The notes under the pieces were generated by a model. It had not been told where the DNA came from. It saw only the letters and a list, made by a program, of their open reading frames with translations, and made no database searches. This document shows positions 11,375-45,678 of a stretch of DNA of 64,000 bases, in pieces. This stretch comes from a bacterium (GTDB lineage Bacteria > Desulfobacterota > Binatia > DP-6), in the NCBI GenBank assembly GCA_026129405.1, contig JAHCID010000007.1, forward strand, positions 186,001 to 250,000, in the 5' to 3' direction. A program made the position numbers and the translations under genes. Positions within the stretch are counted from its first letter, which is position 1, and every line of letters starts with the position of its first letter.

Positions 11375-13066
11375 TCAGGCCGCGCGGCCGCCGCGCAGGA
11401 CGCGGCCCGGGAGCGCGGCGCCGGGGGCGACCGCGTCGCGACCGTCCTCGCGCACGACGGTGCCGTTCACGACCACCGCGCGCACGCCGAGCGCGTCGGC
11501 GACCAGCCGATCGGTGCCGCCGGGAAGGTCGTGCACCCGTCGCAACGCCGTGCATGCGACCGTCGCGGGATCGAAGACGGTCACGTCGGCGGCGAGCCCG
11601 GGCGCGAGGCGGCCGCGGTCGCCGATCCCCATCACCTCGGCCGGCCGCGCCGTGAGCATGCGCACCGCCTGCTCCAGCGAGAGCGTGCCGCGCTCGCGCA
11701 CCCAGTGGCCAAGGAGATGGGTCGAGAAGCCGGCGTCGCAGAGCTGGCTCGCGTGCGCCCCGGCGTCCGACAGCCCGAGCACCATGATCGGGTTCGCCAG
11801 CAGCTCCGCGACCTCGTCCTCGTCGAAGTTCAGCACCGACATGCGGAAGCGGGTCGCGAGGTCGGTGGACAGCCCGAGGTCGAACATCAGGTCGACCGGG
11901 TCGACGCCGCGCGCACGCGCCAGCGGCACCATTCCCTGCCCCTCCAGCGACGGATCGGCGGGATGGTACGAGACGACCATGCGTTCCCACGAGAAGGCGA
12001 AGACGCCGGCCATCGCCCCCGCGAGCGCGTCCTTCACCGCCCGGCGGAACGCCGCATCGGCATAGGCCCGCGCCTTGCCCGCGCGGCCCTCGCCGGCGAT
12101 CGCCGCGAAGGTGGGCATGCTCTCGAAGACGAACGGCGCGGCGAGGTCGAACTCGAAGTTGAGGGGCCGGCACGCCACCTGCGGCACGACCGGGATGCCC
12201 TCGCCCGCGATCGCTTCGGCCTGCTGCACGAACATGCGATGCGAGCCGGGTCCCATGAGACCGGCGAGGAGCGCGGTCCACGTGAGGGTGCGCCCGGTCT
12301 CGCGGGCGAGCGTGCGGAACTCCTGGAAGAAGAGGCCCGGGCCGGCCGTGGCCTGGATGACGCCGCGGCCCGCCTCGCCGAGCGCACCGGCGATGGCGAG
12401 CACCTCGTCGAGCTCCGCGAGGCGGCTCGGCACCGGCTTCCCGCCGTCGCCGAGATGGGTGGGCGACTTCGAGGTCGCGAAGCCGAGGGCTCCCGCGTCG
12501 ATCGCCGCCCGCACGATGGCGCGCATGGCCGCAGTCTCCTCGGCGGTGGCGGCCCGCTCGGTCGCCGCGTCGCCCATGACGTAGAGCCGCAAGGGCGTGT
12601 GACCGATCAACGCGGCCACGTTGATGGCGGTGCCGAGGCGCTCGATCGCGTCGAGGTACTCGGGAAAGGTCTCGAACGGCCAGTCCGCGCCGCAGCCCGC
12701 CTCGAGGGTGGCGAGGCTCATGCCTTCGACCTTCTCCAGCGTGCGCAGGATGCGGCTGCGATCCTGCGGCCGCGTCGGCGCGACGCCGAAGCCGCAGTTG
12801 CCCATGACGACGGTGGTGACGCCGTGCCACGGCGAGATCGACAGCATGCGGTCCCACAGGATCTGCGCGTCGTAGTGCGTGTGGACGTCGATGAAGCCGG
12901 GCGCCACGACGCAGCCGCCGGCGTCGAGCGTCCGCGCGGCGCGGGCCGTGCCGACGTCGCCGACACCGACGATGCGGCCGCCCGCGATCGCGAGGTCGCC
13001 GCGCACGCCCGGTGCGCCCGTGCCGTCGACGACGGTGCCGCCGCGGATGAGGAGGTCGCAATCCAT
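11375..13066 (-). CDS. N-acyl-D-amino-acid deacylase-like amidohydrolase
   Basis: 563 residues from the ATG at 13066 (a TTG 36 bases further upstream is possible but weaker). The N-terminal beta-sandwich (DLLIRGGTVVDGTG) leads into the metal site APGFIDVHTHYDAQ (HxH, ~60), IGHTPLR (~155) and the catalytic SDAGAHASQLCD (~435), and the C-terminal sandwich closes the protein. This is the amidohydrolase subgroup that includes D-aminoacylase and dihydroorotase-like enzymes acting on N-acyl-D-amino acids. It faces the dehydrogenase convergently across 44 bases. The substrate is unproven. Confidence 0.87.
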   Translation of the reverse strand: MDCDLLIRGGTVVDGTGAPGVRGDLAIAGGRIVGVGDVGTARAARTLDAGGCVVAPGFIDVHTHYDAQILWDRMLSISPWHGVTTVVMGNCGFGVAPTRPQDRSRILRTLEKVEGMSLATLEAGCGADWPFETFPEYLDAIERLGTAINVAALIGHTPLRLYVMGDAATERAATAEETAAMRAIVRAAIDAGALGFATSKSPTHLGDGGKPVPSRLAELDEVLAIAGALGEAGRGVIQATAGPGLFFQEFRTLARETGRTLTWTALLAGLMGPGSHRMFVQQAEAIAGEGIPVVPQVACRPLNFEFDLAAPFVFESMPTFAAIAGEGRAGKARAYADAAFRRAVKDALAGAMAGVFAFSWERMVVSYHPADPSLEGQGMVPLARARGVDPVDLMFDLGLSTDLATRFRMSVLNFDEDEVAELLANPIMVLGLSDAGAHASQLCDAGFSTHLLGHWVRERGTLSLEQAVRMLTARPAEVMGIGDRGRLAPGLAADVTVFDPATVACTALRRVHDLPGGTDRLVADALGVRAVVVNGTVVREDGRDAVAPGAALPGRVLRGGRAA

Positions 13067-13130: not shown

Positions 13131-14914
<1,784 letters not shown>

Positions 14915-14918
<4 letters not shown>

Positions 14919-17749
14919 GCCGTCCCCTCCAGCAGCGCCACCGGCAGGTGCGCCAGGACGCCGGCGACCTTTAGCTCGCCGTCGCGGGCGAGCACGTCGT
15001 GCCCGGCGAGCGCGTCGCGCAGTGCGCTCGTGCCGCCGCCGGGCGGCAGCCGGACGACCGTGTCGCCCCATGCCGCGCCGAGGGGCGGATCCGGCAGGCC
15101 GGCGAAGAAGCGGCCGACGATCGCGACCGCCGCGCGGCCGCCGTGCCGGCGCGCGAACGCGATCACCCGCCGCGCCTGTGCGCCCTCGGCGACGAGCGGC
15201 ACGTAGTCGCCGTCGACGAACAGCGCCGCGTCACGCCCGCGCGCCGCGAGCGCCCGCTGCGTCAGCCAGAGCTTCAGCCGCCCGTCCGGCAGGGTCGCGA
15301 GCAGCGCGCGTGCGAGCGCGATCGGGTCGCCTGCCGCCGCCTGCAGCTCGCCGAGCGCACGCGCGTGCGCCCCGAGGTCGACCGGCGTGCGGTTGTCCGG
15401 ATCCACCAGGCGGAGGTCCCAGCGCTCGGTGCCCTGGTAGAAGTCGGGCACGCCGGGCGCCGCCACCTTGAGGACGAGCTGCGCGAGCCCGTTCAGCAGC
15501 CCCGGGCGCACGATGCCGGCGACGAACCCGGCGACGTCGGCGTGGAAGGCGTTCGCCGGATCGCGCCGCAGCGCCGCGCGCACGAACGCCTCGAGCGCCG
15601 CCTCGTAGTCGCGCTCGGGGCAGAGCCAGCTCGTGCGCAGCTTCGCCTCGCGCGCCGCCTTGCGTGCATAGGCGACGAGGCGCGCGACGAAGGCGTCCCA
15701 CCCCGCGTCGTCCGCGGGCGCGAGCGGCCAGGCGCCGACCAGCGTCTGATACAGCAGGTACTCGTCGATCCCCTCCGGCGCGTCCGCCCCGTCGACGGGG
15801 CGACGATGCGCGTGGTTCTGCTCGCGCCAGCGCGACACCGCCGCCGTCCACGCCTGCGGCACCTCGGAGAGGACGGCGAGCCGTGCGCGCACGTCCTCGC
15901 CGCGCTTGCAGTCGTGGCTCATGGTCGCCGAGAGGCCGCGCGGCCAGTCGCGGCGCCGCGCCGCGGCCTCCGCGTGGAAGCGGTCCACCGCGACGCCGAT
16001 GCGGTCGGGCTCGCCGCCCACCTCGTTCAGCGCCGCGAGCGGCAGATGCCGGTACATGGCGGTGTCCTCGACGCCCTTCGCCATCACCGGGCCGGTCAGC
16101 TGCTGGAGCCTCAGGACGAAGTCGCGACGCGCCCCGCGGCCGGCCGCGTCGAGCCCGGGCGGATCGTCGCAGGCGAGGACGCTGCCGATGAAGTCGAACA
16201 GCGACGGGCTGACGGCCGGGTTGCGCTGCTTGGCACGCCGCACCGCGGTCGCGACGTGGGCGCGGTCCGCACGGGAGGGCCGCTCGTCGCCGGGGCGGAG
16301 ATAGGTGCGGTAGACCGGGAAGCACGCCATGACCTCGCCGAGGCCGCGGCCGAGGCTCTGCAGCGTGAAGTCGCGCGAGAAGCGGTGCGCCTCGGAGATC
16401 GCGTCGAGCCGGCGCGCGAGCACCGTCAGCTCGCTCGCCATGAGGTCGCGCAGGACGAGCCGCTTGCACTGCGTGGCGACGCTGCGGAACGACGCCACGT
16501 CGCCGACCACGAGCGCGTGCAGCCCCTGCAGCGCGAACGCCGCGGCGGGATCGACGAGGACGCCGAGCACGAGGTTCAGGAACTCGTAGCCCGTCGTGCC
16601 TGCGACCGGCCACGACGGCGGCAGCGGCTCCCCGTCGGCGAGGATCTTCTCGACCACGACCCACGAGCCCGCCGGCAGACGCTCGAGGTAGCCCTGCGGG
16701 TCGAAGAGCCCGTCGACGTGGTCGATACGCAGGCCGTCGAGCCATCCCTTCGCGACGGCCGTACCCACCCACGCGTGCACCGCCGCGTGCACCTCGGGAT
16801 CCTCGACGCGGATCGCGGCCAGGTCGTTGACGTCGAAGAAGCGCCGGTAGTTGATCTCGTCGGTCGCGACCTGCCAGTGGCTGAGCCGCCACGCCTGGAC
16901 GGCAAGCAGCGCTTCGAGGGCGTCGAAGCTGTGCGGATCGCCCACCCGGCCGTTCAGCGCGGCGAGCACGGCGTCGAGCGCCTCGCGCACGACGGGCGCC
17001 TCGTCGACCAGCGCCCGCAGCCGTCGCTTCACGACCTCCTTCTCGCGCTGGCGCTCCCGCCGGCGCTCCGGGTCCGTCTCGTCGCGCGCGGGCAGGTGCT
17101 CGAGCGCGGTGGCGATGCTCTCGAGCTCGGCGACGCGGACGTCGTCGTCGCCGAGCGTCGCACGCAGCCGCGCCGCCACCGGCGCGACGATCGCCTGCCA
17201 GCTCTTCGGCGCCAGCGGGTAGCGCGCGCTGCCGTAGGCGACGGCGACGAACCCGCCGTCGTCCCAGGCCACGCGCAGCTCGCCCGCCTCGAGCACGCGC
17301 CCGTACTGGTCCCCCAGCACGGGCAGCAGGACGCGCCCCGCCAGCTCGGCCTTCGGCGGCGTCCAGTCGACGTCGAAGCAGCGCGCCGACGCGGCGCTCG
17401 GGCCGTTCTCGAGCACGTCCTGCCACCAGGCGTTCTCGCCGCCGCCGACCGACATGTGATTCGGCACCACGTCGAGCAGGATGCCCATGCCGCGCAGCCG
17501 CAGCGCCTCGGCGAGGCGCGTGAAGTCGTCGTCGGTACCGAGGACCGGATCGATGCCGGCGTGATCGACGACGTCGTAGCCGTGGGTGCTGCCGGTGCGC
17601 GCGCGCAGGACCGGGGCGAGATAGGCGTGGCTGATGCCGAGCGCGCGCAGGTAGTCGACCGCGGCGAGCACCCCGCGCAGATCGCGCGCGCCGTGCAGCT
17701 GGAGCCGGTAGGTGGCGACCGGCGGACGGGACGACGGAGAAGCCGGCAT
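14915..17749 (-). CDS. treY: Malto-oligosyltrehalose synthase
   Basis: 944 residues, normal for TreY. GH13 features are visible: TYRLQLHGARDL at the N-terminus, DVVPNHMS (~95), DGLRIDHVDGLFDPQGYL (~340), VVEKILADGEPLP (~365), TGYEFLN (~385) and SHDCKRGEDVRARL (~610), where most TreY proteins have THDTKRGEDVR. It converts the reducing end of a maltodextrin into a trehalosyl end. The ATG at 17749 has no clear ribosome site; a TTG at 17770 is an alternative. treZ overlaps its 3' end. Glycogen debranching and phosphorylase genes elsewhere in the window would feed the same glucan pool. Confidence 0.94.
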
Positions 17750-17808: not shown

Positions 17809-20406
17809 CTACGCCGCCAGGTCCGCCGCGCGCCGCCGTGCGACCACGACCGGCATGCCCTCCGACGGCGCCAGCGTCACCGAGCGCCGCACCACGCGCA
17901 CCTGGTAGCCCGGTGCGGGCCGCAGCGCGACGCGTGTCAGCACCTCGGCCAGCACGATCTTCATCTCGTAGAGCGCGAAGGCCGCGCCCAGGCAGCGCCG
18001 TACGCCGCCGCCGAACGGCAGGAACTCGAACGCCGTCGGCTTCGCCTCGAGGAAGCGCTCCGGGCGGAAGCGCTCGGGCTCGGGCCAGCGCTCGGGACGC
18101 CGGTGCGCGAGGATGATGCACGGCGCGGCGACCACACCGGCCGGCAGGTCGACGCCGCCGATGCGCAGCGGGCGCGTCAGCCGGCGGCCGACGATCGGCA
18201 CGATGGGCGTCAGCCGCAGGGTCTCCTTGCAGACCGCGTCGAGGTACTCGAGGCGCACGATCTCCGCCGGCGTGTGCGCCGGCGCCAGCTCGGCTTCGAG
18301 CCGCGCGCGCACCTCCGGATGCGCGAGGACGTGGTGCACCGCCCAGGCGAGCGACGTGGCGGTGGTCTCGTGGCCGGCGACGAGCATGGTCACCAGCTCG
18401 TCGCGCAGCGCCTGGTCGGAAAGCGGCTCGCCCTGCTCGTCGCGGGCGGCCAGCAGCACCGACAGCACGTCGTGGCGGCCCTCCGCCGGCATCGTCCGGC
18501 GGCGCGCGATCTCGGCGAAAAGCTCCTCGTCGACCCGCGCGCGCACGCGCAGCGGGCGCGCGGCCGGGCCGTCGACGCGTCCGTTGGCGATCGCGATCAG
18601 GATCTGCGGATTCGACGATACCCCCAGCAGGTCGCGCAGCCCGCCGCGCAGGCTGTCCATCTTCGGGCCCTCGTCCATGCCGAAGACGGTGCGCAGGATG
18701 ACGTCGAGCGTGATGCGCTGCATGTGCGGATGGAGCGCGAACGGCTGGCCGACGGGCCAGGCGTCGACGTCGCGGCGGGCGATGTCGCGCATGCTGTCGC
18801 CGTACGACTGCATGCGCTCGCCCTGGAACGGCGGCTGCACGATGCGCCGCTCGTTGAGGTGCTCGCGGCCGTCGAGCAGGAGCAGCGAATGCCGGCCGAG
18901 CAGCGGCTCGAGCAGCGCGTTCGCTTCGCCGGCGCGGAGGTCCTCCTCGCTGCCGGTGAAGAGATCACGGATGGCCTCGGGGTGGCTCACCATCACCAGC
19001 GGCGGCCGGCCCGGCAGGCGGACGGTGAACACGTCGCCGAAGCGGCGCGCGCACTCGTCGAGGAACGGGAACGGCCACTGGATCCAGCGCATGGCCTGGA
19101 GCAGTGGCGGCTCGGCGGGCCCGGGCGGCAGGCCGGGGATCGCCGGCTCGGGCGGCACGTCGGCATGGCGGGCGAGCGCCTCGATGAGCGCGCGCTGCAC
19201 CAGCAGGCGGCCCGGGGCGAGCGTGTGCGACAGCCCGTTCAGGAGGATCATCACGCGGCCGATGAGCGTGAAGTGCGACGGGATCGTCGTGATCGGCGTC
19301 TCGGCCAGCATCGCCGGGATGCCGCCGTCGTCCTCGCGGTCGCCGAGCAGGGCGAGCACGAGACCGGGGAGCGCGGTGGCCTGGTCGTCGCCGACCTCGA
19401 AGCCCGCGCTGCGGGCGGCGGCGAGCGCGCCGGCGGCATCGCCGGTGATGCCCCGGACCACCATGGTCGCGACGGCGCGCCCGAAGCCCGGCGGCAGCTC
19501 CTTCGCGAGCCCGAAGTCGAGGATGCCGATCGTGCCGTCGGCGAGTACGAGGAGGTTCCCCGGGTGCGGGTCGCCCTGGAAGAAGCCCTGCTCGAAGATC
19601 ATGCGGGCGTAGGCGCGGCCGATGCGCTCGGCCACGACCTCCAAGTCGACGCCGCGCGCGCGCAGCGCGTCCAGGTCGGTCACCTTCGTGCCCTCGAGGA
19701 ACTCCAGCACGAGGAGCTTGTCGGTCGAGAGCTCGCGGTGGACGCGCGGGATGCGCACGGTGGGGTCGTCGGCCATCGCGGCGCGCACGCGCTCGGTGGA
19801 GTCGGCTTCGCGGCGGAAGTCGAGCTCCAGGGTGACGAAGTCGGCCAGCTCGTCGACCAGGCTGACGAGGTCGAGGTCGCGGGCGACGCGCCCGGCGACG
19901 CGGGCCAGCACGCGCAGGCTGGCGAGGTCGACGCGCGCGAGCGACGCGATCTCCGCGTACTGCACCTTCACCGCGACCTCGGTGCCGTCGCGCAGCGTCG
20001 CGCGGTGCACCTGCGCCAGCGACGCGGCGGCGAGCGGCGTCTCGTCGAAGCGCACGAACACCTCGCCGAGCGGCCGCCCCAGCTCGCGCTCGACGAGGCG
20101 GCGGATCTCGGCGAACGGATGCGGCGGTACGGCGTCGTGGAAGCGCCCGAGGTGGCGGATGAACGGCGCCGGGAAGACGTCGGCGCGGGCGCCGACCACC
20201 TGGCACAGCTTCACGAACATACCCTTCAGGTCGATGCCCGCGTCGTGCAGCGCGCGCGCCGCGCGGTCGTGCTGCGCGTCCCACTCCGCCTGCGTCGCGC
20301 CCCCGCCGCGCCGGTCGAGACGGCGATAGCGGGCGAGGTTCGGGAGCGCGACGGAGGCGATGCGACCGATGCGGAACGGGGCCAGCCGGCGCAGGCCGGC
20401 GTTCAC
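17809..20406 (-). CDS. Fusion of an ABC1/UbiB-family atypical kinase and a cytochrome P450
   Basis: 865 residues in one uninterrupted frame from a GTG that overlaps the preceding small gene (GTGA). Residues 1 to ~425 are an ABC1/UbiB kinase-like domain: KLCQ (the family's KxGQ element), the Ala-rich loop AAASLAQVHRA, VAVKVQ lysine, ELDFRREAD, the catalytic loop FFQGDPHPGN (~280) and ILDFG (~298). Residues ~426-865 are a full P450: proline-rich entry IPGLPPGP, I-helix LVAGHETTATS (~674), KETLR (ExxR, ~728), PERFRPERF and the haem loop FGGGVRRCLG (Cys ~803). Both halves keep their key residues. UbiB proteins support isoprenoid-quinone biosynthesis and lipid transport; P450s oxidise lipophilic compounds. 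A membrane-lipid or quinone substrate is therefore plausible, but this is inference. The promoter matches that of the divergent ECF sigma gene. Confidence 0.93.
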   Translation of the reverse strand: MNAGLRRLAPFRIGRIASVALPNLARYRRLDRRGGGATQAEWDAQHDRAARALHDAGIDLKGMFVKLCQVVGARADVFPAPFIRHLGRFHDAVPPHPFAEIRRLVERELGRPLGEVFVRFDETPLAAASLAQVHRATLRDGTEVAVKVQYAEIASLARVDLASLRVLARVAGRVARDLDLVSLVDELADFVTLELDFRREADSTERVRAAMADDPTVRIPRVHRELSTDKLLVLEFLEGTKVTDLDALRARGVDLEVVAERIGRAYARMIFEQGFFQGDPHPGNLLVLADGTIGILDFGLAKELPPGFGRAVATMVVRGITGDAAGALAAARSAGFEVGDDQATALPGLVLALLGDREDDGGIPAMLAETPITTIPSHFTLIGRVMILLNGLSHTLAPGRLLVQRALIEALARHADVPPEPAIPGLPPGPAEPPLLQAMRWIQWPFPFLDECARRFGDVFTVRLPGRPPLVMVSHPEAIRDLFTGSEEDLRAGEANALLEPLLGRHSLLLLDGREHLNERRIVQPPFQGERMQSYGDSMRDIARRDVDAWPVGQPFALHPHMQRITLDVILRTVFGMDEGPKMDSLRGGLRDLLGVSSNPQILIAIANGRVDGPAARPLRVRARVDEELFAEIARRRTMPAEGRHDVLSVLLAARDEQGEPLSDQALRDELVTMLVAGHETTATSLAWAVHHVLAHPEVRARLEAELAPAHTPAEIVRLEYLDAVCKETLRLTPIVPIVGRRLTRPLRIGGVDLPAGVVAAPCIILAHRRPERWPEPERFRPERFLEAKPTAFEFLPFGGGVRRCLGAAFALYEMKIVLAEVLTRVALRPAPGYQVRVVRRSVTLAPSEGMPVVVARRRAADLAA

Positions 20407-20624
20407 GCGGCCTCCGGCAGCACCGCGGCGGCCGTGCGCACGCGGGGGCCGCCGGTCACGATCACGGGCGGCTCGGCCTCGGGCCGCTGCGCACGCAGGA
20501 CGGCGATCACCACGACGACGCTGCCCAGCACGGCCAGAGCGGCGGCGAGGTAGAGGAAGACCGGCCACGCGACGAGCGGCAGGGTCATGGAGGCCACGAA
20601 CGGCGACGGCGGTGCGAGCAGCAT
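20403..20624 (-). CDS. Small single-pass membrane protein heading the kinase-P450 operon
   Basis: 73 residues. One strong hydrophobic segment (about residues 12-42, centred on LYLAAALAVLGSVVVVIAVL) is followed by a charged, proline-rich tail. AAGGAG lies six bases before the ATG, the best ribosome site in the neighbourhood, and its TGA overlaps the GTG of the ABC1-P450 gene, so the two should be made together. It has no recognisable family. A role as membrane anchor or partner of the fusion protein is possible but unproven. The upstream 140 bases hold the mirrored ECF-type promoters. Confidence 0.7.
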   Translation of the reverse strand: MLLAPPSPFVASMTLPLVAWPVFLYLAAALAVLGSVVVVIAVLRAQRPEAEPPVIVTGGPRVRTAAAVLPEAA

Positions 20625-20652
20625 GGCGTTCTCCTTTGCGGTTCTGCCCCTG

Positions 20653-20679
20653 GCACCCGCGAGCCCGGCCGGAGGTTCA
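20653..20679 (-). promoter_or_regulatory. Putative ECF-type promoter of the small membrane protein / kinase-P450 operon
   Basis: Read on the minus strand, the element begins TGAACCTCCGG and ends GCGGGTGC, 27 bases long, about 30 bases before the ATG of the small gene. It matches 23 of 27 positions of the plus-strand element at 20694-20720. A GAAC-containing -35 and a GT-containing -10 at this spacing fit ECF sigma promoters. The nearby ECF gene is the obvious candidate regulator. Confidence 0.6.
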
Positions 20680-20693
20680 TCCGCCCCGCGAAT

Positions 20694-20720
20694 TGAACCT
20701 CCGGTCGGGTTCGGGGGTAC
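20694..20720 (+). promoter_or_regulatory. Putative ECF-type promoter of the sigma factor operon
   Basis: It begins TGAACCTCCGG and ends GGGGGTAC, 45 bases before the sigma gene ATG. It differs from its mirror copy at 20653-20679 only at positions 12, 17, 21 and 26. The two TGAACCTCC boxes form a perfect nine-base inverted repeat around a 14-base centre. This suggests autoregulation of the sigma factor together with the divergent operon. Confidence 0.6.
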
Positions 20721-20764
20721 AGCGGGTACCGTGGTAGGGCAGCAACCAGCGAGTCGAGCGACGC

Positions 20765-21307
20765 ATGCCGGAGGCCAGCGACGAGACCCTCTTCGCAGCC
20801 TGGCGGGCCGGGGACGAAGCCGCGTTCGAGGCCCTGTTCCGCCGCTGGCAGGCGCCGCTGGCGCGCCATCTGACCCGCATGCTGGACGATGCCGCGACGG
20901 CCGAGGATCTCGTGGTCGAGACCTTCCTGCGCCTGCATCGGCACCGGGACCGGGTGCGGGCGGACCGCCCCGTGAAGCCGCTGGCGTGGACGATCGCGCG
21001 CAACCTGGCGCGCAACCGCCGCCGGACGCAGCGCCTGTGGGGCTGGCTGCCGCTGGCGACGGCGGAGCCGGAGCGCTCGCAGCCGCCGCCGGGCGACGCA
21101 GAGGCACTGGGGCGGGTGGCCGCGGCGTTCGCGGCTCTGCCGGCGGCGCAGCGCGAGACCTGCTCGCTGCGCCTCGTGGGCGAGCTGACGATCGAGGAGA
21201 TCGCGGAGGTGACCGGCGCCTCGGTGGGCACCGTCAAGTCGCGACTCTTCTACGGGCTGCGCCGCCTGCGCACGCTGCTCGCCGATCTCGATCCGGAAAA
21301 GGAGTGA
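20765..21307 (+). CDS. ECF-type RNA polymerase sigma factor (sigma-70 family)
   Basis: 180 residues. Region 2 covers ~10-85 (EAFEALFRRW, DDAATAEDLVVETFLRLHRHRDR, KPLAWTIARNLARNRRR) and region 4 ~115-170 (LPAAQRETCSLRLVGELTIEEIAEVTGASVGTVKSRLFYGLRRLR). There is no C-terminal extension. It should direct RNA polymerase to stress- or envelope-type promoters. The next gene, nine bases on, looks like a membrane anti-sigma factor. Mirrored promoter elements upstream suggest it transcribes its own operon and the divergent ABC1-P450 operon. The ribosome site is weak. Confidence 0.93.
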   Translation: MPEASDETLFAAWRAGDEAAFEALFRRWQAPLARHLTRMLDDAATAEDLVVETFLRLHRHRDRVRADRPVKPLAWTIARNLARNRRRTQRLWGWLPLATAEPERSQPPPGDAEALGRVAAAFAALPAAQRETCSLRLVGELTIEEIAEVTGASVGTVKSRLFYGLRRLRTLLADLDPEKE

Positions 21308-21311
21308 CCGC

Positions 21312-21524
21312 ATGGCCGTCCGCCGTCTGATCCACGCCGCCACGCCGCCGCCGCGCGACCTATGGCCGCGCCTGTGCGCGCGGCTCGCCGCCGACGACGA
21401 GCGCCTCACGCTCGAGCTGCCGGCCTTCGACTGGCGCTGGCGCCTGGCGGCGGCGGCCACCGCGGCCATGCCGTTCCTCGTCCCGCATCCGGTGCGCTTT
21501 CTCACCGCCACCGGCTTCTTCTGA
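21312..21524 (+). CDS. Small membrane protein, putative anti-sigma factor
   Basis: 70 residues. The N-terminal 40 residues are hydrophilic and contain PPPRDLWPRLCARL, a pattern often seen at the start of short ECF-linked membrane proteins; a hydrophobic segment (~45-62) follows and the tail is only a few residues. There is no zinc-binding HxxxCxxC motif. GGAG lies just ahead of the ATG and overlaps the stop of the sigma gene, so synthesis is coupled. Position and topology make it the likely anti-sigma factor of the upstream sigma, but nothing in the sequence proves binding. Confidence 0.6.
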   Translation: MAVRRLIHAATPPPRDLWPRLCARLAADDERLTLELPAFDWRWRLAAAATAAMPFLVPHPVRFLTATGFF

Positions 21525-21528
21525 GCCG

Positions 21529-21909
21529 ATGCGCCAGCGCGAGCTCCAGGCCTACCTGATCGGCGCGGGCATCGCGGGCACCGCGCTCGTCATCCCCTAC
21601 GCCGGCCGCTCGATCGCGAGCCTCGTCATTCCCGCCTGGGACGCGACCAACGTTCCCTTCTACCTGCTGCCGATCGTGTGGGGATTCTGGAACTGGCTCG
21701 GCGTCCGCCTCGCGAGCCCCCTGCCGCCGTGGGCCTGGGGAGCCGTGCTCGGCGTGAGCGTATCGATCGGCGTCAACCTCATCCACCTCTGGCGGGGGCA
21801 CTGGTTCGCGCCGCTGCTGCTCCTGGTCGCCTGGATCCCGATCATCTACGCGATCGCCTGGACGTTCGTCATCGTGCCGCTCAATCGCGCCTTCGACGTC
21901 GAGCCCTGA
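21529..21909 (+). CDS. Four-helix integral membrane protein of unknown function
   Basis: 126 residues, almost entirely hydrophobic, with four predicted membrane helices (about 8-30, 42-62, 70-90 and 94-120) rich in Trp and aromatic residues. No family is recognised. It starts four bases after the small anti-sigma-like gene and completes the plus-strand arm of the sigma island. It may be part of the sensor or a target of the sigma factor. The gene is bounded downstream by a perfect 20-base palindrome before the convergent debranching enzyme gene. Confidence 0.65.
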   Translation: MRQRELQAYLIGAGIAGTALVIPYAGRSIASLVIPAWDATNVPFYLLPIVWGFWNWLGVRLASPLPPWAWGAVLGVSVSIGVNLIHLWRGHWFAPLLLLVAWIPIIYAIAWTFVIVPLNRAFDVEP

Positions 21910-21956: not shown

Positions 21957-24062
21957 TCACGGCCGGCCGTCCTCCGCTCCCGCGATCGTGCAGCGCACCA
22001 GCTCGGCGACGCTCCACGCCTGCGCGATGCAGCCGCGCGGGTAGTACGGCGCCTCGGCGTCGAAGATCTCGCTCACCTCGCCCGTGCACGCCTCGCTCAG
22101 CGCCGACGTGGTCGCGGCCTCGACGAGGTCCCGCACGGTCGCGGTGTCGCCGGGATGCACGCGCAGCCAGGCGTCGGCGAACGGCCCGAGGAGCCAGGCC
22201 CACACGGTGCCCTGGTGGTACGCGGCGTCGCGGTTGCGCAGGTCGCCGCAGTAGGTCGGGCGGTAGTCCGGATGGCCGGGCGCGAGCGTGCGCAGCCCCA
22301 CCGGCGTGAGGAGATGGTCGCGCGCCTGCTCGACGACGGGTCGCCAGCGCTCCGGCGCGAGCACGGGATAGGGCAGCGCGATCGCGAGCAGCTGGTTCGG
22401 ACGCAGGCTCGAGTCGACCGCGCCGACCACGCCGTCGACGTCGACCACGTCGTGGCAGTACCCACCTGCGCCCCACCAGAAGCGCGCGTTGAACGACTCG
22501 CGCGCTACCTCCGCGAGATGGAGCAGGCGGCGCGCGGTCGCGGCGTGGCCGTCCTCCGCGGCCCAGTCGGCGACCAGACGGAGCGCGTTGTACCAGAGGG
22601 CGTTGATCTCGACCGCCTTGCCCCGCCGCGGCGTCACCACCCAGCCCTCGACCTTCGCGTCCATCCAGGTGAGCTGGTAGCCCTCGGCGCCCTGGCGCAG
22701 GAGGCCGTCGGCCGGGTCGATGCCGATGCCGAAGCGCGTGCCGGCGACGTGGCGGTCGACGATCTCCTGGATCGCGGGCATGAGCTCGCGGCGCAGCGTC
22801 GGATCGCCGGTGAGCGCCGCCTGGCGGCCGAGCGCATGCACGAACCAGAGCGTCGCGTCGGCGGTGTGGTAGACGCCTTCGCTCTCGCCCTCGGGGAAGT
22901 AGTTCGGGATCAGCCCGTCGCGCAGGTGATGCGCGAACGTGCGCAGGATGGACGCCGCGTCGGCCGGGCTGCCGGCACGCAGCGTGAGACCTTCGAGCGC
23001 GATCATCGTGTCGCGGCCCCAGTCGGTGAACCAATGGTAGCCGGCGACCACCGAGCGCGCCTCGTGTCCCTCCGCGTGCTGGAGCGCCTCGTCGGCGAGG
23101 CGCGCGTGCGGCGTGACCACGAAGTGATCCGCGGCGAGCGCCAGCTCCGCGCCGACGCCGGTGCGCAGCGCCGGATGGGCGCGCCCGACCAGCTCCCGCC
23201 GCCGCGCCGCCTCGGCGGCGCGGGCCTCCTCCCAGCCGAGCGCCTCCATCTCGTCCCAGGGCTGCATCGAGGCGACGACGGTCACGACGTCGCCCGGCGC
23301 GAGCACCGCCTCCCAGTGCCCCGGGCTGACCACCGGGCCGCAGGATTCGTAGCCGCGCTCGCGCTCGACGGCGTAGAGCCGCTCGACGCACGCCTCGGCG
23401 GGCAGGAAGCGCACCGGACGCGGCCCGTACGCGCCCAGGCGCACCGGCGGCAGATCCACCGCGCGCACCTCGATCCCGGATCCGTGCTCCCCCACGCCGT
23501 ACGGGAAGTGCGGCGCCTCGAAGCGCGCGCCGGGATAGCGACCGGCGAGCCCGTCGACGGGACGGTCGTGCAGCCGCAGGTTGAGCTCGGGCCGCAGATC
23601 GAGCCGCACCGGCCCGGGGGCCGCGAGCAGCGTCCAGCCGCACAGCGCGGTGTTGCGCAGGTGCGGCATCACGATGCGGCGCTCGAGCACCGTGCCGGCG
23701 TGCGCGAAGCGCCACACCGGCAGGCCGTCCTCGAGCGCCACCTCCTCGAGCGCGTCGGTGGGAAGATGCATCGGCCCGACGAACGGCGCCTCGCCGCCGA
23801 GCCGTAGCGGCGCGTCCTCGCCGACGCACAGGGTCTCCGCGAGGCCCGCGACGGCGAGCATGCGGCCGATGGGGGCGGGCAGCGCGGCGACGAGCAGGCC
23901 GTGGTAGCGCCGCGTCGCGACGCCGCCGAGCGTGCCGCTGGCGTAGCCGCCGAGGCCGTTGGTGACGAGCCACTCCCGCGTCGCGAGCAGCTCCGGGGCG
24001 TCGCCGCGGGCCCAGGCCACGCGGCGCACGATGGCGTGCGGTCGGGGATCTATCGGAGTCAT
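21957..24062 (-). CDS. Glycogen debranching enzyme (amylo-alpha-1,6-glucosidase type)
   Basis: 701 residues. The N-terminal domain of bacterial/archaeal debranching enzymes (REWLVTNGLGGYASGTLGGVATRRYHGLLVA, split here as REWLVTNGLGGYASG then RRYHGLLVA, ~27-55) precedes an (alpha/alpha)6 glucosidase domain with WFTDWGRDTMIALEG (~345), IPNYFPEGES (~385), DATLWFVHA (~400) and NRDAAYHQGTVWAWLLGPF (~625). The Asp/Glu residues in these motifs match the catalytic region. It removes alpha-1,6 branches from glycogen or maltodextrin. The ATG overlaps the stop of the second treZ-like gene, so the two are coupled. Confidence 0.92.
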   Translation of the reverse strand: MTPIDPRPHAIVRRVAWARGDAPELLATREWLVTNGLGGYASGTLGGVATRRYHGLLVAALPAPIGRMLAVAGLAETLCVGEDAPLRLGGEAPFVGPMHLPTDALEEVALEDGLPVWRFAHAGTVLERRIVMPHLRNTALCGWTLLAAPGPVRLDLRPELNLRLHDRPVDGLAGRYPGARFEAPHFPYGVGEHGSGIEVRAVDLPPVRLGAYGPRPVRFLPAEACVERLYAVERERGYESCGPVVSPGHWEAVLAPGDVVTVVASMQPWDEMEALGWEEARAAEAARRRELVGRAHPALRTGVGAELALAADHFVVTPHARLADEALQHAEGHEARSVVAGYHWFTDWGRDTMIALEGLTLRAGSPADAASILRTFAHHLRDGLIPNYFPEGESEGVYHTADATLWFVHALGRQAALTGDPTLRRELMPAIQEIVDRHVAGTRFGIGIDPADGLLRQGAEGYQLTWMDAKVEGWVVTPRRGKAVEINALWYNALRLVADWAAEDGHAATARRLLHLAEVARESFNARFWWGAGGYCHDVVDVDGVVGAVDSSLRPNQLLAIALPYPVLAPERWRPVVEQARDHLLTPVGLRTLAPGHPDYRPTYCGDLRNRDAAYHQGTVWAWLLGPFADAWLRVHPGDTATVRDLVEAATTSALSEACTGEVSEIFDAEAPYYPRGCIAQAWSVAELVRCTIAGAEDGRP

Positions 24063-25996
24063 GTCTCCTCGTCGGCGGGACGGAGCAGGACGGCGGCCTG
24101 CCCCGGAAGATGCCAGCCGTCGTCCCCCTCCACGGCCGGGATGCCGGCGCCGCCGTACGCCGGGCCTTCGGAGCTCCAGAGCACGCACCAGCCGTGGCGC
24201 GTCGGCGACGCCAGCAACGGCTCGGGCGCCGGCGCCAGCAGCACGTCGGCGCCGAGATTCAGCAGCAGCAGTCGGTCGCCGCGCTCGTGCACGAAGCGCA
24301 GCGCGAGCGCCGCCGGCGCGAGCACCGCGCCGTGCATGCGGTCGGCGCGCTGCTGCGCGATCGCCGGCTCGGCGCGCCGCAGGCGCAGCAGATCGCGATG
24401 GAGCCGGGTCACGTGGGCGTGGCGCGTGCGCTCGGCGTCGTCGAGGCGGCAGCGCGCGAACGTCTCGGGGTCGTGCGGATCCGGCAGCGCGGCCTGCATG
24501 GCGTCCGTCGCGAGCGAGGGGAACTGACGCAGGAACGCGCGCCGGCCCTCGGCCACGGCGCGCGCCAGGTCGGGCCGGTGGTCCGCGAAGTAGTGGAACG
24601 GAGCGCTCGCCCAGTACTCCTGACCCTGGAACAGCATCGGCGTCGCCGGCCCGAGGAGGAGCAGCGCCGTCAGGGCGCGCAGCCGCGCGGGGGCGACCCG
24701 TGCCGCGAGCCGCCGGCCGCCGGGCCCGTTCGCCACCTGGTCATGGTTCTCGAGGAAGGTGACGAACGCGGTGGCGTCGAGATCGAGCGCCGGCGTGCCG
24801 CGGCGGGCGCGCTGCCAGAGATAGCGCTGGCCCTGATAGAGGAAGCCCCAGCGCAGCGCCGAGTAGAGCTCCTGCGGCGTGCCGCCGTAGTCGGTGTAGT
24901 AGGCCTCGCGCCGGCCCGTCGCCGCGACCACCGCGGCGTGGTGGAAGTCGTCGTTCCACAGCGCGTCGAGACCGTAGCCGCCGCGGGCCGGCGGGCGCAC
25001 CAGGCGCGCCTCCTGCGGCTCGTTCTCGGCGACGAGGACGATCGTGCGCGGCGCCGCCGCGGCGCGCGCCGCGGTCGCGATGTCCGCCAGCACGTGGCGC
25101 GCCGAGGCGTCGAAGATCTGCTGGGTGGCGTCGAGGCGCAGGCCGTCGAGGTGGAACTCGTCGATCCAGTACGCCGCGTTGGCGACGAAGAACTCGCGTA
25201 CCGGCCCGGCCTCGGGACCATCGAAGTCGAGCGCTTTGCCCCACTCGTTCTCGTAGCGGTCGGTGAAGTAGGCGGACGCGAAGCGCTCGAGGTGGCAACC
25301 GTCCGGGCCGAGGTGGTTGTAGACGACGTCGAGCAGGACGCCGAGGCCGTGCGCGTGGGCGGCGTCGACGAAGCGGCGGACGTCGTCGGGCGTGCCGTAG
25401 AGCCGGCTCGGCGCCCATAGCGCGACGCCGTCGTAGCCCCAGCCGAAGCGGCCGGGGAACTCGGCGATCGGCATCACCTCGACGGCGGTGACGCCGACGT
25501 CGCGCAGCCCCGCGAGCCGCGCCGCCGCCGCCGCGAAGGTCCCCTCGGGCGTGAACGTGCCGACGTGCAGCTCGTAGAGCACGAGCCCGTGCGTGCCGAG
25601 ACCGGGCCACTCGGCGTCGTGCCAGACGAACGCCGTCGGATCGACGACCTGCGACCAGCCGTGCGGGCCGTCGGGCTGCGCGCGCGACGCCGGGTCGGGC
25701 AACGGATCGCCCCCGTCGAGCAGGAAGGCATAGCGGTCGCCCGCGTAGAGCCCGTCGACCCGCGCCGCGAAGTAGCCGCCGGCCTCGGCGACGAGCGGCG
25801 CCGGCGCCGCGAGCGACGGCGAGGCGAGCGCGACCCGCGTCGCGCGCGGCGCCCAGACGCGCACCAGCGCACCGCCGTCGCCCGGCTCGACGCCGACGGG
25901 TCGACGGCGCACGCCACGTCCGCTCCGGCCGTGCGCGGCGAACGCCGCCGGCGGCGATGCGTCGCCGCGCGCGGGGGGTGCAACGATGGCGGTCAT
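24059..25996 (-). CDS. treZ: Second malto-oligosyltrehalose trehalohydrolase-like GH13 protein
   Basis: 645 residues from an ATG with GAGG seven bases upstream. It has an early-set N-domain (VRVWAPRATRVALAS, ~45-60), then the GH13 barrel: DVVYNHLGPDG (~230), FHLDGLRLDATQQI (~290), VAENEPQEARLVR (~325) and LENHDQVANGPGGRR (~420). It aligns throughout with the TreZ at 13131-14918 but reads AENEPQEARL where that copy has AESDLNDPRL, and it is about 50 residues longer. It is coupled to the debranching enzyme, not to treY. It may hydrolyse maltooligosyltrehalose or another 1,4-glucan end. The gene-level call is firm, the exact substrate is not. Confidence 0.88.
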   Translation of the reverse strand: MTAIVAPPARGDASPPAAFAAHGRSGRGVRRRPVGVEPGDGGALVRVWAPRATRVALASPSLAAPAPLVAEAGGYFAARVDGLYAGDRYAFLLDGGDPLPDPASRAQPDGPHGWSQVVDPTAFVWHDAEWPGLGTHGLVLYELHVGTFTPEGTFAAAAARLAGLRDVGVTAVEVMPIAEFPGRFGWGYDGVALWAPSRLYGTPDDVRRFVDAAHAHGLGVLLDVVYNHLGPDGCHLERFASAYFTDRYENEWGKALDFDGPEAGPVREFFVANAAYWIDEFHLDGLRLDATQQIFDASARHVLADIATAARAAAAPRTIVLVAENEPQEARLVRPPARGGYGLDALWNDDFHHAAVVAATGRREAYYTDYGGTPQELYSALRWGFLYQGQRYLWQRARRGTPALDLDATAFVTFLENHDQVANGPGGRRLAARVAPARLRALTALLLLGPATPMLFQGQEYWASAPFHYFADHRPDLARAVAEGRRAFLRQFPSLATDAMQAALPDPHDPETFARCRLDDAERTRHAHVTRLHRDLLRLRRAEPAIAQQRADRMHGAVLAPAALALRFVHERGDRLLLLNLGADVLLAPAPEPLLASPTRHGWCVLWSSEGPAYGGAGIPAVEGDDGWHLPGQAAVLLRPADEET

Positions 25997-44514: not shown

Positions 44515-45678
44515 ATGGAGCCGAGCAGCAGCGAGTTCGATCCACAGCTCCTCTTCGACCATCCCGACCCGTACCCGATGTTCGCCATGCTGCGGGAGGC
44601 GAACCCCGTCTTCCGCAGCGAGTTCATGACCCGCGTCGCGTACGTCGTCACGCGCTACGACGACTGCCTCGCGATCCTGAAGGACGGCGAGACGTTCTCG
44701 TCGAAGTCGAACGCCGAGGTCGGCAAGGTGATGGGCCGCACCGTCATCGAGATGGACGGCAAGGAGCACACCCGCCATCGCGCCATCGTGCAGCCGCTGT
44801 TCGTTCCGCGGGGGATGGAGGCGCTGCAGGACGTCCTCCAGACGACCGTCCACCAGGTGATCGACGAGTTCGCCGCCGAGCCGCGCGCCGACCTCGTCGC
44901 CGCCTTCACCGAGCGCTTCCCGGTGCAGATCGCGGCGCACATGCTCGGCATGCCGCGCGAGCACTACCCGCAATTCCAGAAGTGGGCGCTCGACATCATC
45001 GGCTTCGTGAAGGACTGGGACCGCGGCCACGCCGCCTCGGCGGCGGTGCGCGAGTACCTCATGCCCATCATCGCGGCGCGCCGCGACGAGGCGCGCGAGG
45101 ACGTCATCTCGTCGCTCGTGCGCGGCCGCGTCGACGGCACCGGGCTCGACGACGAGGAGGTCGTCAGCTTCCTGCGCCTGCTGATCCCCGCCGGCGCGGA
45201 GACCACCTTCCGCCTCCTCGGCAACATGCTCTTCGCGCTGCTCACCGAGCGCGATCGCTGGGAGCGCGTGCGCGCCGACCGCAGCCTCGTCCCCTGGGTC
45301 ACCGAGGAGACGCTGCGCTGGGAGACGTCGGTGCTCATGGTCTCGCGGCAGGCGATGAAGCCCGTCGTCCTCCACGACGTCGAGATTCCCGAGGGCGGGC
45401 TCGTGTCGGTCGTCGTCGCCTCCGCCAACCGCGATCCGCGCAAGTATTCGAACGGCGACCAGTGGGACCTCGACCGGCGCGCCGACGACCATCTCGCCTT
45501 CGGCTTCGGGCGCCACCACTGCCTCGGCTATCACCTCGCCCGGCTCGAGGCGCGGGTGGCGCTGAACGCCCTGCTCGACCGCCTGCCCGACCTGCGGCTC
45601 GATCTCGACGCCCCGCCGCCGACCATCACCGGCCTCGCCTTCCGCTCGCCGAAGACGCTGCCGGCGCTCGTGCGCTGA
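44515..45678 (+). CDS. Cytochrome P450
   Basis: 387 residues, a normal soluble bacterial P450. Visible: I-helix LIPAGAETTFRLLGN (~223-237), ExxR in VTEETLRWETS (~263), and the haem-binding loop FGFGRHHCLGYHLARLE (Cys ~339). The ExxR and Cys are intact, but the usual RxxR Arg-His run (MRHRAIVQPLFVPRGM) is recognisable only as TRHRAIVQPLFVP. It needs ferredoxin and reductase partners that are not visible here. It overlaps nothing and diverges from the phosphotransferase gene. Substrate unknown; it is unrelated in sequence style to the P450 fused to the kinase at 17809. Confidence 0.93.
   Translation: MEPSSSEFDPQLLFDHPDPYPMFAMLREANPVFRSEFMTRVAYVVTRYDDCLAILKDGETFSSKSNAEVGKVMGRTVIEMDGKEHTRHRAIVQPLFVPRGMEALQDVLQTTVHQVIDEFAAEPRADLVAAFTERFPVQIAAHMLGMPREHYPQFQKWALDIIGFVKDWDRGHAASAAVREYLMPIIAARRDEAREDVISSLVRGRVDGTGLDDEEVVSFLRLLIPAGAETTFRLLGNMLFALLTERDRWERVRADRSLVPWVTEETLRWETSVLMVSRQAMKPVVLHDVEIPEGGLVSVVVASANRDPRKYSNGDQWDLDRRADDHLAFGFGRHHCLGYHLARLEARVALNALLDRLPDLRLDLDAPPPTITGLAFRSPKTLPALVR

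Follow-up and report, generated by a model that had tools for sequence, protein, structure and literature searches.

Is an ABC1/UbiB-type protein joined in one chain to a cytochrome P450 a genuine protein and, if so, what might one half do for the other? What UbiB/COQ8-type proteins use ATP for is a long-standing question, and the known partners of cytochromes P450 supply electrons. To our knowledge, no ATP-driven substrate-loading partner has been described for the P450 superfamily. The gene described here, which lies in a 64-kb stretch of bacterial DNA (the window), brings these two subjects together.

The fusion gene and its domains

The gene is a minus-strand frame that runs from a GTG at 20406 to a TAG ending at 17809 without internal stops (Table 1). 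An earlier note on this DNA had described one open frame of 865 codons, with its strand unstated, carrying an ABC1 domain and a complete P450, and frame reading together with Pfam confirmed this. Long antisense frames are present opposite the gene, as is usual in such GC-rich DNA, and the minus-strand frame was chosen on the basis of codon usage and the domain matches; its third-position GC is 0.97. The domain search proposed in the earlier note matched both families above cut-off, with ABC1 (PF03109) at E 3.1e-75 and 252.9 bits (cut-off 22.9, profile 2-240 of 244) and p450 (PF00067) at E 1.3e-66 and 225.8 bits (cut-off 22.8, profile 1-445 of 462). The halves belong to the known ABC1/UbiB-ADCK superfamily and to cytochrome P450. 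As the profiles are nearly complete and every quoted motif was found, the description of each half as full length with its hallmark residues holds, as does that of the linker as short and proline-rich.

In the ABC1 half, an Ala-rich loop replaces the glycine-rich loop, and the catalytic K147, QGDPHPGN and LDFG are all kept. The KxGQ-type extension retains an invariant K66 and Q69 among 26 aligned members, and its glycine is Cys or Ala throughout the subfamily. The haem Cys loop, ExxR and the acid-alcohol pair of the I-helix are kept in all four fusions of the window type (see below). Over the 865 residues only ABC1 and p450 were matched, with no third Pfam domain such as a reductase or ferredoxin; electrons must therefore come from separate proteins, and the chain is not a self-sufficient P450 of the CYP102 or CYP116 type. 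No transmembrane helix was found in the fusion by hydropathy. Elsewhere in the window there is a stand-alone P450 of a different type (44515-45678, plus strand).

Table 1. Coordinates of the fusion gene, its domains and motifs, and the adjacent sigma-factor cassette (positions in the window).
Feature	Position	Strand	Basis or remark
ABC1(UbiB-like)-cytochrome P450 fusion gene, 865 aa, GTG start	17809..20406	-	ORF, Pfam; same architecture in L067, L068, L069
PF03109 ABC1 domain, residues 89-327	19426..20142	-	Pfam
KLCQ, at the KxGQ place of UbiB	20200..20211	-	K66, Q69 invariant; Gly to Cys
Ala-rich loop AAASLAQVH, residues 126-134	20005..20031	-	Motif alignment
Catalytic loop QGDPHPGN, residues 277-284	19555..19578	-	Motif alignment
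LDFG metal-binding motif (DFG residues 297-299)	19510..19521	-	Motif alignment
Proline-rich linker, residues 411-426 (~16 residues)	19129..19176	-	Four-fusion comparison
PF00067 cytochrome P450 domain, residues 427-839	17890..19128	-	Pfam
I-helix oxygen-activation motif AGHETT, residues 677-682	18361..18378	-	Motif alignment
K-helix ExxR (KETLR), residues 727-731	18214..18228	-	Motif alignment
Haem-binding loop FGGGVRRCLG, Cys805	17986..18015	-	Motif alignment
73-aa one-helix membrane protein	20403..20624	-	Upstream of fusion
ECF-type promoter-like site TGAACC-N15-GGGTG(C), towards 73-aa gene and fusion	20654..20679	-	Pattern scan
ECF-type promoter-like site TGAACC-N15-GGGTA(C), towards sigma factor genes	20694..20719	+	Pattern scan
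ECF sigma factor (Sigma70_r2, Sigma70_r4_2)	20765..21307	+	Pfam; conserved in L067, L070
70-aa protein, no named family, conserved in cassette	21312..21524	+	Cassette comparison
126-aa membrane protein, no Pfam family	21529..21909	+	Cassette comparison

The same fusion in other genomes

A search for the same architecture among 148 genomes of the same class, as the earlier note had suggested, recovered further full-length fusions in G474 (76% identity), G486 (72%) and G447 (71%; locus L069, where the contig begins at residue 86). These three additional proteins have both Pfam domains, the same junction, no stops and all the motifs that lie on the available sequence. Across the four fusions the linker varies in sequence and is near-constant in length. 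Furthermore, differences among the fusions rank third > first > second by codon position in both halves, as expected of a protein under selection.

In trees, the P450 halves of the fusions form one clade (support 100/100), and so do the ABC1 halves (support 100/97) when L070 is included. L070 comes from another gene of the fusion type in G447, of which a contig end leaves only the 5' half, and was left out of the count of demonstrated fusions since its P450 half lies off its contig. A one-clade test of the ABC1 halves limited to the four two-half fusions was rejected (p 0.006) solely because L070 falls inside. Positions 1-389 of L069 and 1-390 of L070, both at contig ends, differ by ~8% (about 92% identical) over 389 bases; G447 carries either two fusion-type copies or two strains within one MAG.

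The earlier note had held that this is not two genes joined by a sequencing slip, and the four genomes, the monophyletic halves and the conserved promoter and neighbours agree with it. The same architecture in three more genomes excludes chance joining and, together with the monophyly of both halves, rules out a slip or mis-joined contigs. Nor do all relatives encode the halves separately, the finding that the earlier note had named as one that would undo its claim, as three further genomes hold the fusion. The simplest reading of the trees is a single fusion event followed by inheritance. An origin from a tandem ABC1-P450 operon was considered and rejected, since no locus with that arrangement was seen. 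At E 1e-125, a search of 377 genomes from the phylum to which a Myxococcales genome (G528) belongs gave no window-type fusion, and neither did one, run without a positive control, of 396 genomes from the phylum that includes a Mycobacterium. Similarly, no plasmid record covered 80% of the fusion query.

A divergent sigma-factor cassette

Upstream of the fusion lies a gene for a small membrane protein that ends in a TGA shared in part with the fusion's GTG start codon (GTGA), so that the two are probably translationally coupled. Counterparts of this 73-aa protein precede the fusion-type gene in L070 and also occur in a cassette without a fusion in G445 (L092). A 140-base gap (20625-20764) separates the 73-aa gene from an oppositely directed set of genes headed by an ECF sigma factor. 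This divergent cassette is retained beside the G474 fusion and, in G447, next to the copy at the contig edge; G486 retains only its membrane-protein gene; the 126-aa membrane protein is found in 6 of the 148 genomes of the class, including all four fusion genomes.

The gap holds two promoter-like sites facing outwards. Back-to-back TGAACC-N15-GGGTAC sites with the same 15-base spacing are found in G000, G474, G447 and G445, with single-base variation (for example, AGAACC in the G474 forward copy), and G486 has one site of this type, facing the fusion. A scan of the 64-kb window for the pattern with at most one mismatch gave these two sites and no others (0.16 expected), and across 132 loci every occurrence is in this cassette. 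As the conserved sites are confined to the cassette, the neighbouring ECF sigma factor very probably has the fusion in its regulon. The cassette and both sites are also present in G445, where the fusion is absent. A scan of the region for sigma-70 promoters and terminators gave no matches.

Around the fusion and cassette, alpha-amylase-family genes and a glycogen debranching enzyme gene lie on the fusion's strand (window 13131-17749 and 21957-25912). We take the alpha-amylase-family genes to be TreY/TreZ-like, and the cassette looks as if it had been inserted into a trehalose/glycogen cluster. The window (11375-13066) and G445 (L092, 6602-8287) also have similar amidohydrolase genes in the vicinity of the sigma cassette.

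Stand-alone relatives, gene pairs and a second fusion

Most relatives have separate halves. Genomes of the class commonly encode stand-alone proteins related to either half, with P450s at 45-62% identity to the P450 half and ABC1 proteins at 45-53% identity to the ABC1 half, and fusion-type P450s also occur in Myxococcota, cyanobacteria and others. None of the window-type stand-alone P450s was found adjoining an ABC1 gene, and several lie beside TetR-type genes. With a wider P450 profile, the nearest stand-alone ABC1 genes were seen to adjoin another, divergently transcribed P450, with 0.4-1.2 kb between the matched domains. This pair is present at all eight Mycobacterium loci (L013, L014, L016 and L018-L022), with a ninth genome (L128) in agreement, and in the window's class at L076, L077 and L099-L102. 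The paired P450s of the two phyla share 64-67% mutual identity.

A P450 lies within 2 kb in 14 of the 16 loci with the stand-alone ABC1 genes nearest the fusion, spanning two phyla, compared with 0 of 17 loci of the sister ABC1 clade (Fisher p 1.5e-7, a value overstated because the loci are related, representing a single lineage of Mycobacterium and a single one of the window's class and so being phylogenetically non-independent; some sister-set flanks are also short). The close stand-alone ABC1 genes at L078 and L126 have no P450 within 2 kb, and four more distant plasmid ABC1 genes have no P450 neighbour. In addition to the P450, a TetR-type gene adjoins the ABC1 gene in several paired loci of the window's class, and thiolase and acyl-CoA dehydrogenase genes lie near several pairs, none of them common to the four fusion loci; the neighbours of the pairs point weakly to lipids.

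A second kind of fusion was found in a Myxococcales MAG (L125; G528:C131, 4290-6767, minus strand), as an 825-aa protein with both domains. It resembles the window fusion in domain order, ABC1 subfamily and a similar junction, and differs in that its P450 comes from another family, with 27% identity to the window's P450. The closest relative of its ABC1 half is encoded separately elsewhere in G528 itself (62%, support 100), as a stand-alone gene, and its P450 half is 45-50% identical to P450s adjoining stand-alone ABC1 genes and ~35% identical to two control P450s. The usual acid is missing from its I-helix motif (AGFVTT), and its haem Cys is kept. On the identities of the P450 half and the kinship of the ABC1 half, L125 is read as a fused form of the conserved ABC1/P450 pair, with an origin apart from that of the window's fusion.

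As such, a functional link between this ABC1 subfamily and P450s is well supported by gene arrangement, and the subfamily looks like a dedicated P450 partner, given both the pairing counts and the L125 fusion.

Relation to known proteins

The full-length AF2 model has a mean pLDDT of 85.8 and a pTM of 0.82. Residues 1-414 of the model match COQ8A best (Z 29.5 to 7udp, rmsd 3.8, 341 aligned; also 28.5 and 28.3), followed by MSMEG_1954/Rv3197 (Z 26 to 23), and the first kinases outside the family, the RIO kinases, reach Z 14.3. COQ8A/ADCK3 and UbiB share with the fusion the kinase-like fold, Ala-rich loop, KxxQ extension and DFG. Unlike them, the window protein is fused to a P450, has Cys for the Gly of KxGQ and shows no transmembrane helix predicted by hydropathy. 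It is not UbiB proper, the ubiquinone synthesis protein (TIGR01982, 244 bits against an equivalog cut-off of 487.55), nor MABP-1 (NF050082, 140.6 bits against an exception-model cut-off of 800). MABP-1 (Rv3197/MSMEG_1954) has the PF03109 fold in common with the fusion, at about 24-26% identity, but stands alone.

The P450 part of the model gives Z 41.0 to 7jj1 and 40.7 to CYP120A1 (2ve3). CYP120A1 is also its best PDB sequence match (E 7.8e-41), yet as the identity is only 28% the fusion P450 probably belongs to another CYP family; identity to P450s of Mastigocoleus and Nostoc is 42%. CYP120A1 and these cyanobacterial P450s are stand-alone, unlike the fusion. CYP102 (BM3) and CYP51-ferredoxin likewise combine a P450 and a second domain in one chain, but their partners are redox domains, whereas the partner here has an ATPase/kinase fold.

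Proposed mechanism and alternatives

COQ8 is thought to present substrate to coenzyme Q enzymes. By analogy, the ABC1/UbiB half, an atypical kinase fold, would most likely bind and hydrolyse ATP rather than phosphorylate proteins, and could take a membrane-bound or otherwise insoluble substrate or present it to the P450 channel. The P450 half appears to be a complete and probably active monooxygenase of a type accepting lipophilic substrates, and would then oxidise the delivered substrate with electrons from separate proteins. Whether a COQ8-like ATPase half uses ATP in this way to provide the P450 half with a lipophilic substrate is, in our estimate, evenly balanced.

Published work on relatives is consistent with several of these steps. 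MSMEG_1954 and Rv3197 hydrolyse ATP, and Rv3197 binds erythromycin; ATP hydrolysis by MSMEG_1954 is slow, and its pocket, which takes a bulky hydrophobic ligand, is open when ADP is bound (PMC8696161). COQ8B with ATP raised coenzyme Q output about five-fold, and the enzymes that it helped include hydroxylases; with COQ3 present, COQ8B and ATP increased the activity of the hydroxylase COQ6 two-fold (PMC7615680). The earlier note had suggested ATP-dependent substrate extraction plus oxidation. This would be the most likely mechanism and is partly supported, the conserved ABC1/P450 gene pair and the second fusion adding to its support. From the sequences we infer ATPase activity, substrate delivery, a lipid substrate and induction by the adjacent ECF sigma factor.

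The Ala-rich loop and KxxQ extension are tied to ATPase, not kinase, activity in COQ8A. Both are kept in UbiB-type form in the aligned members, which makes it improbable that the ABC1 half acts as a genuine kinase, of proteins or of small molecules, regulating the P450 or a partner, with the P450 in cis as target or scaffold, even though all kinase motifs are present. The report that COQ8B phosphorylated COQ3 would favour such a kinase (PMC7615680), but no kinase activity was identified for MABP-1/MSMEG_1954 (PMC8696161). These same mycobacterial proteins have been linked to macrolide resistance (PMC8696161) and, with the ECF-type promoter-like site preceding the fusion, would fit a detoxification or resistance enzyme under stress-responsive ECF control, in which a bulky antibiotic-like compound captured by the ABC1 half, much as MABP-1 binds erythromycin, is passed to the P450 to be oxidised. 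This is very unlikely, as the fusion scores far under the MABP-1 model cut-off and the neighbours of the paired form include lipid-type genes, not known resistance genes.

The fusion might also merely ensure co-expression or co-localisation of two halves that share a pathway, such as lipid or xenobiotic breakdown, and do not act on each other. The variable linker sequence would fit this, as would the occurrence of the ABC1 subfamily as a separate gene elsewhere and its pairing with two unrelated P450 families. That fusion took place twice, and that the gene pair is conserved across two phyla, nevertheless suggests more than loose co-regulation and, since the pair is divergent, a simple deletion between tandem genes does not account for the fusion; on balance we consider co-localisation alone rather unlikely. 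Substrate supply from the ABC1 half to the P450 half is thus retained as the working proposal.

Implications for P450 partners

The earlier note knew of no described ABC1-P450 fusion, and no description of an ABC1/AarF/UbiB-P450 fusion was found in the open-access literature searched either; the passages located in the Binatota paper have no mention of such a protein (PMC8262859). In a study of an enediyne cluster, the genes named as regulatory include two for AarF/ABC1/UbiB proteins, and a P450 is part of that pathway too (PMC9464397). What is new here is the conserved adjacency of an ABC1 subfamily to divergent P450s, together with the second fusion, L125.

Genes of the subfamily adjoin P450 genes both in mycobacteria and in the window's class, and fusion has joined it to two unrelated P450 families. 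It is conceivable, though on present evidence somewhat doubtful, that a subfamily of UbiB/COQ8-like ATPases assists bacterial P450s generally, as an accessory partner that loads substrate at the expense of ATP. If true, an energy-using P450 partner would be new. A natural single-chain link between an ATPase and an oxygenase, with no predicted membrane helix, would offer a direct system for the effect of ATP at the UbiB fold on hydroxylase access or turnover, and the mycobacterial ABC1/P450 pair poses the same question with separate proteins in cultivable bacteria.
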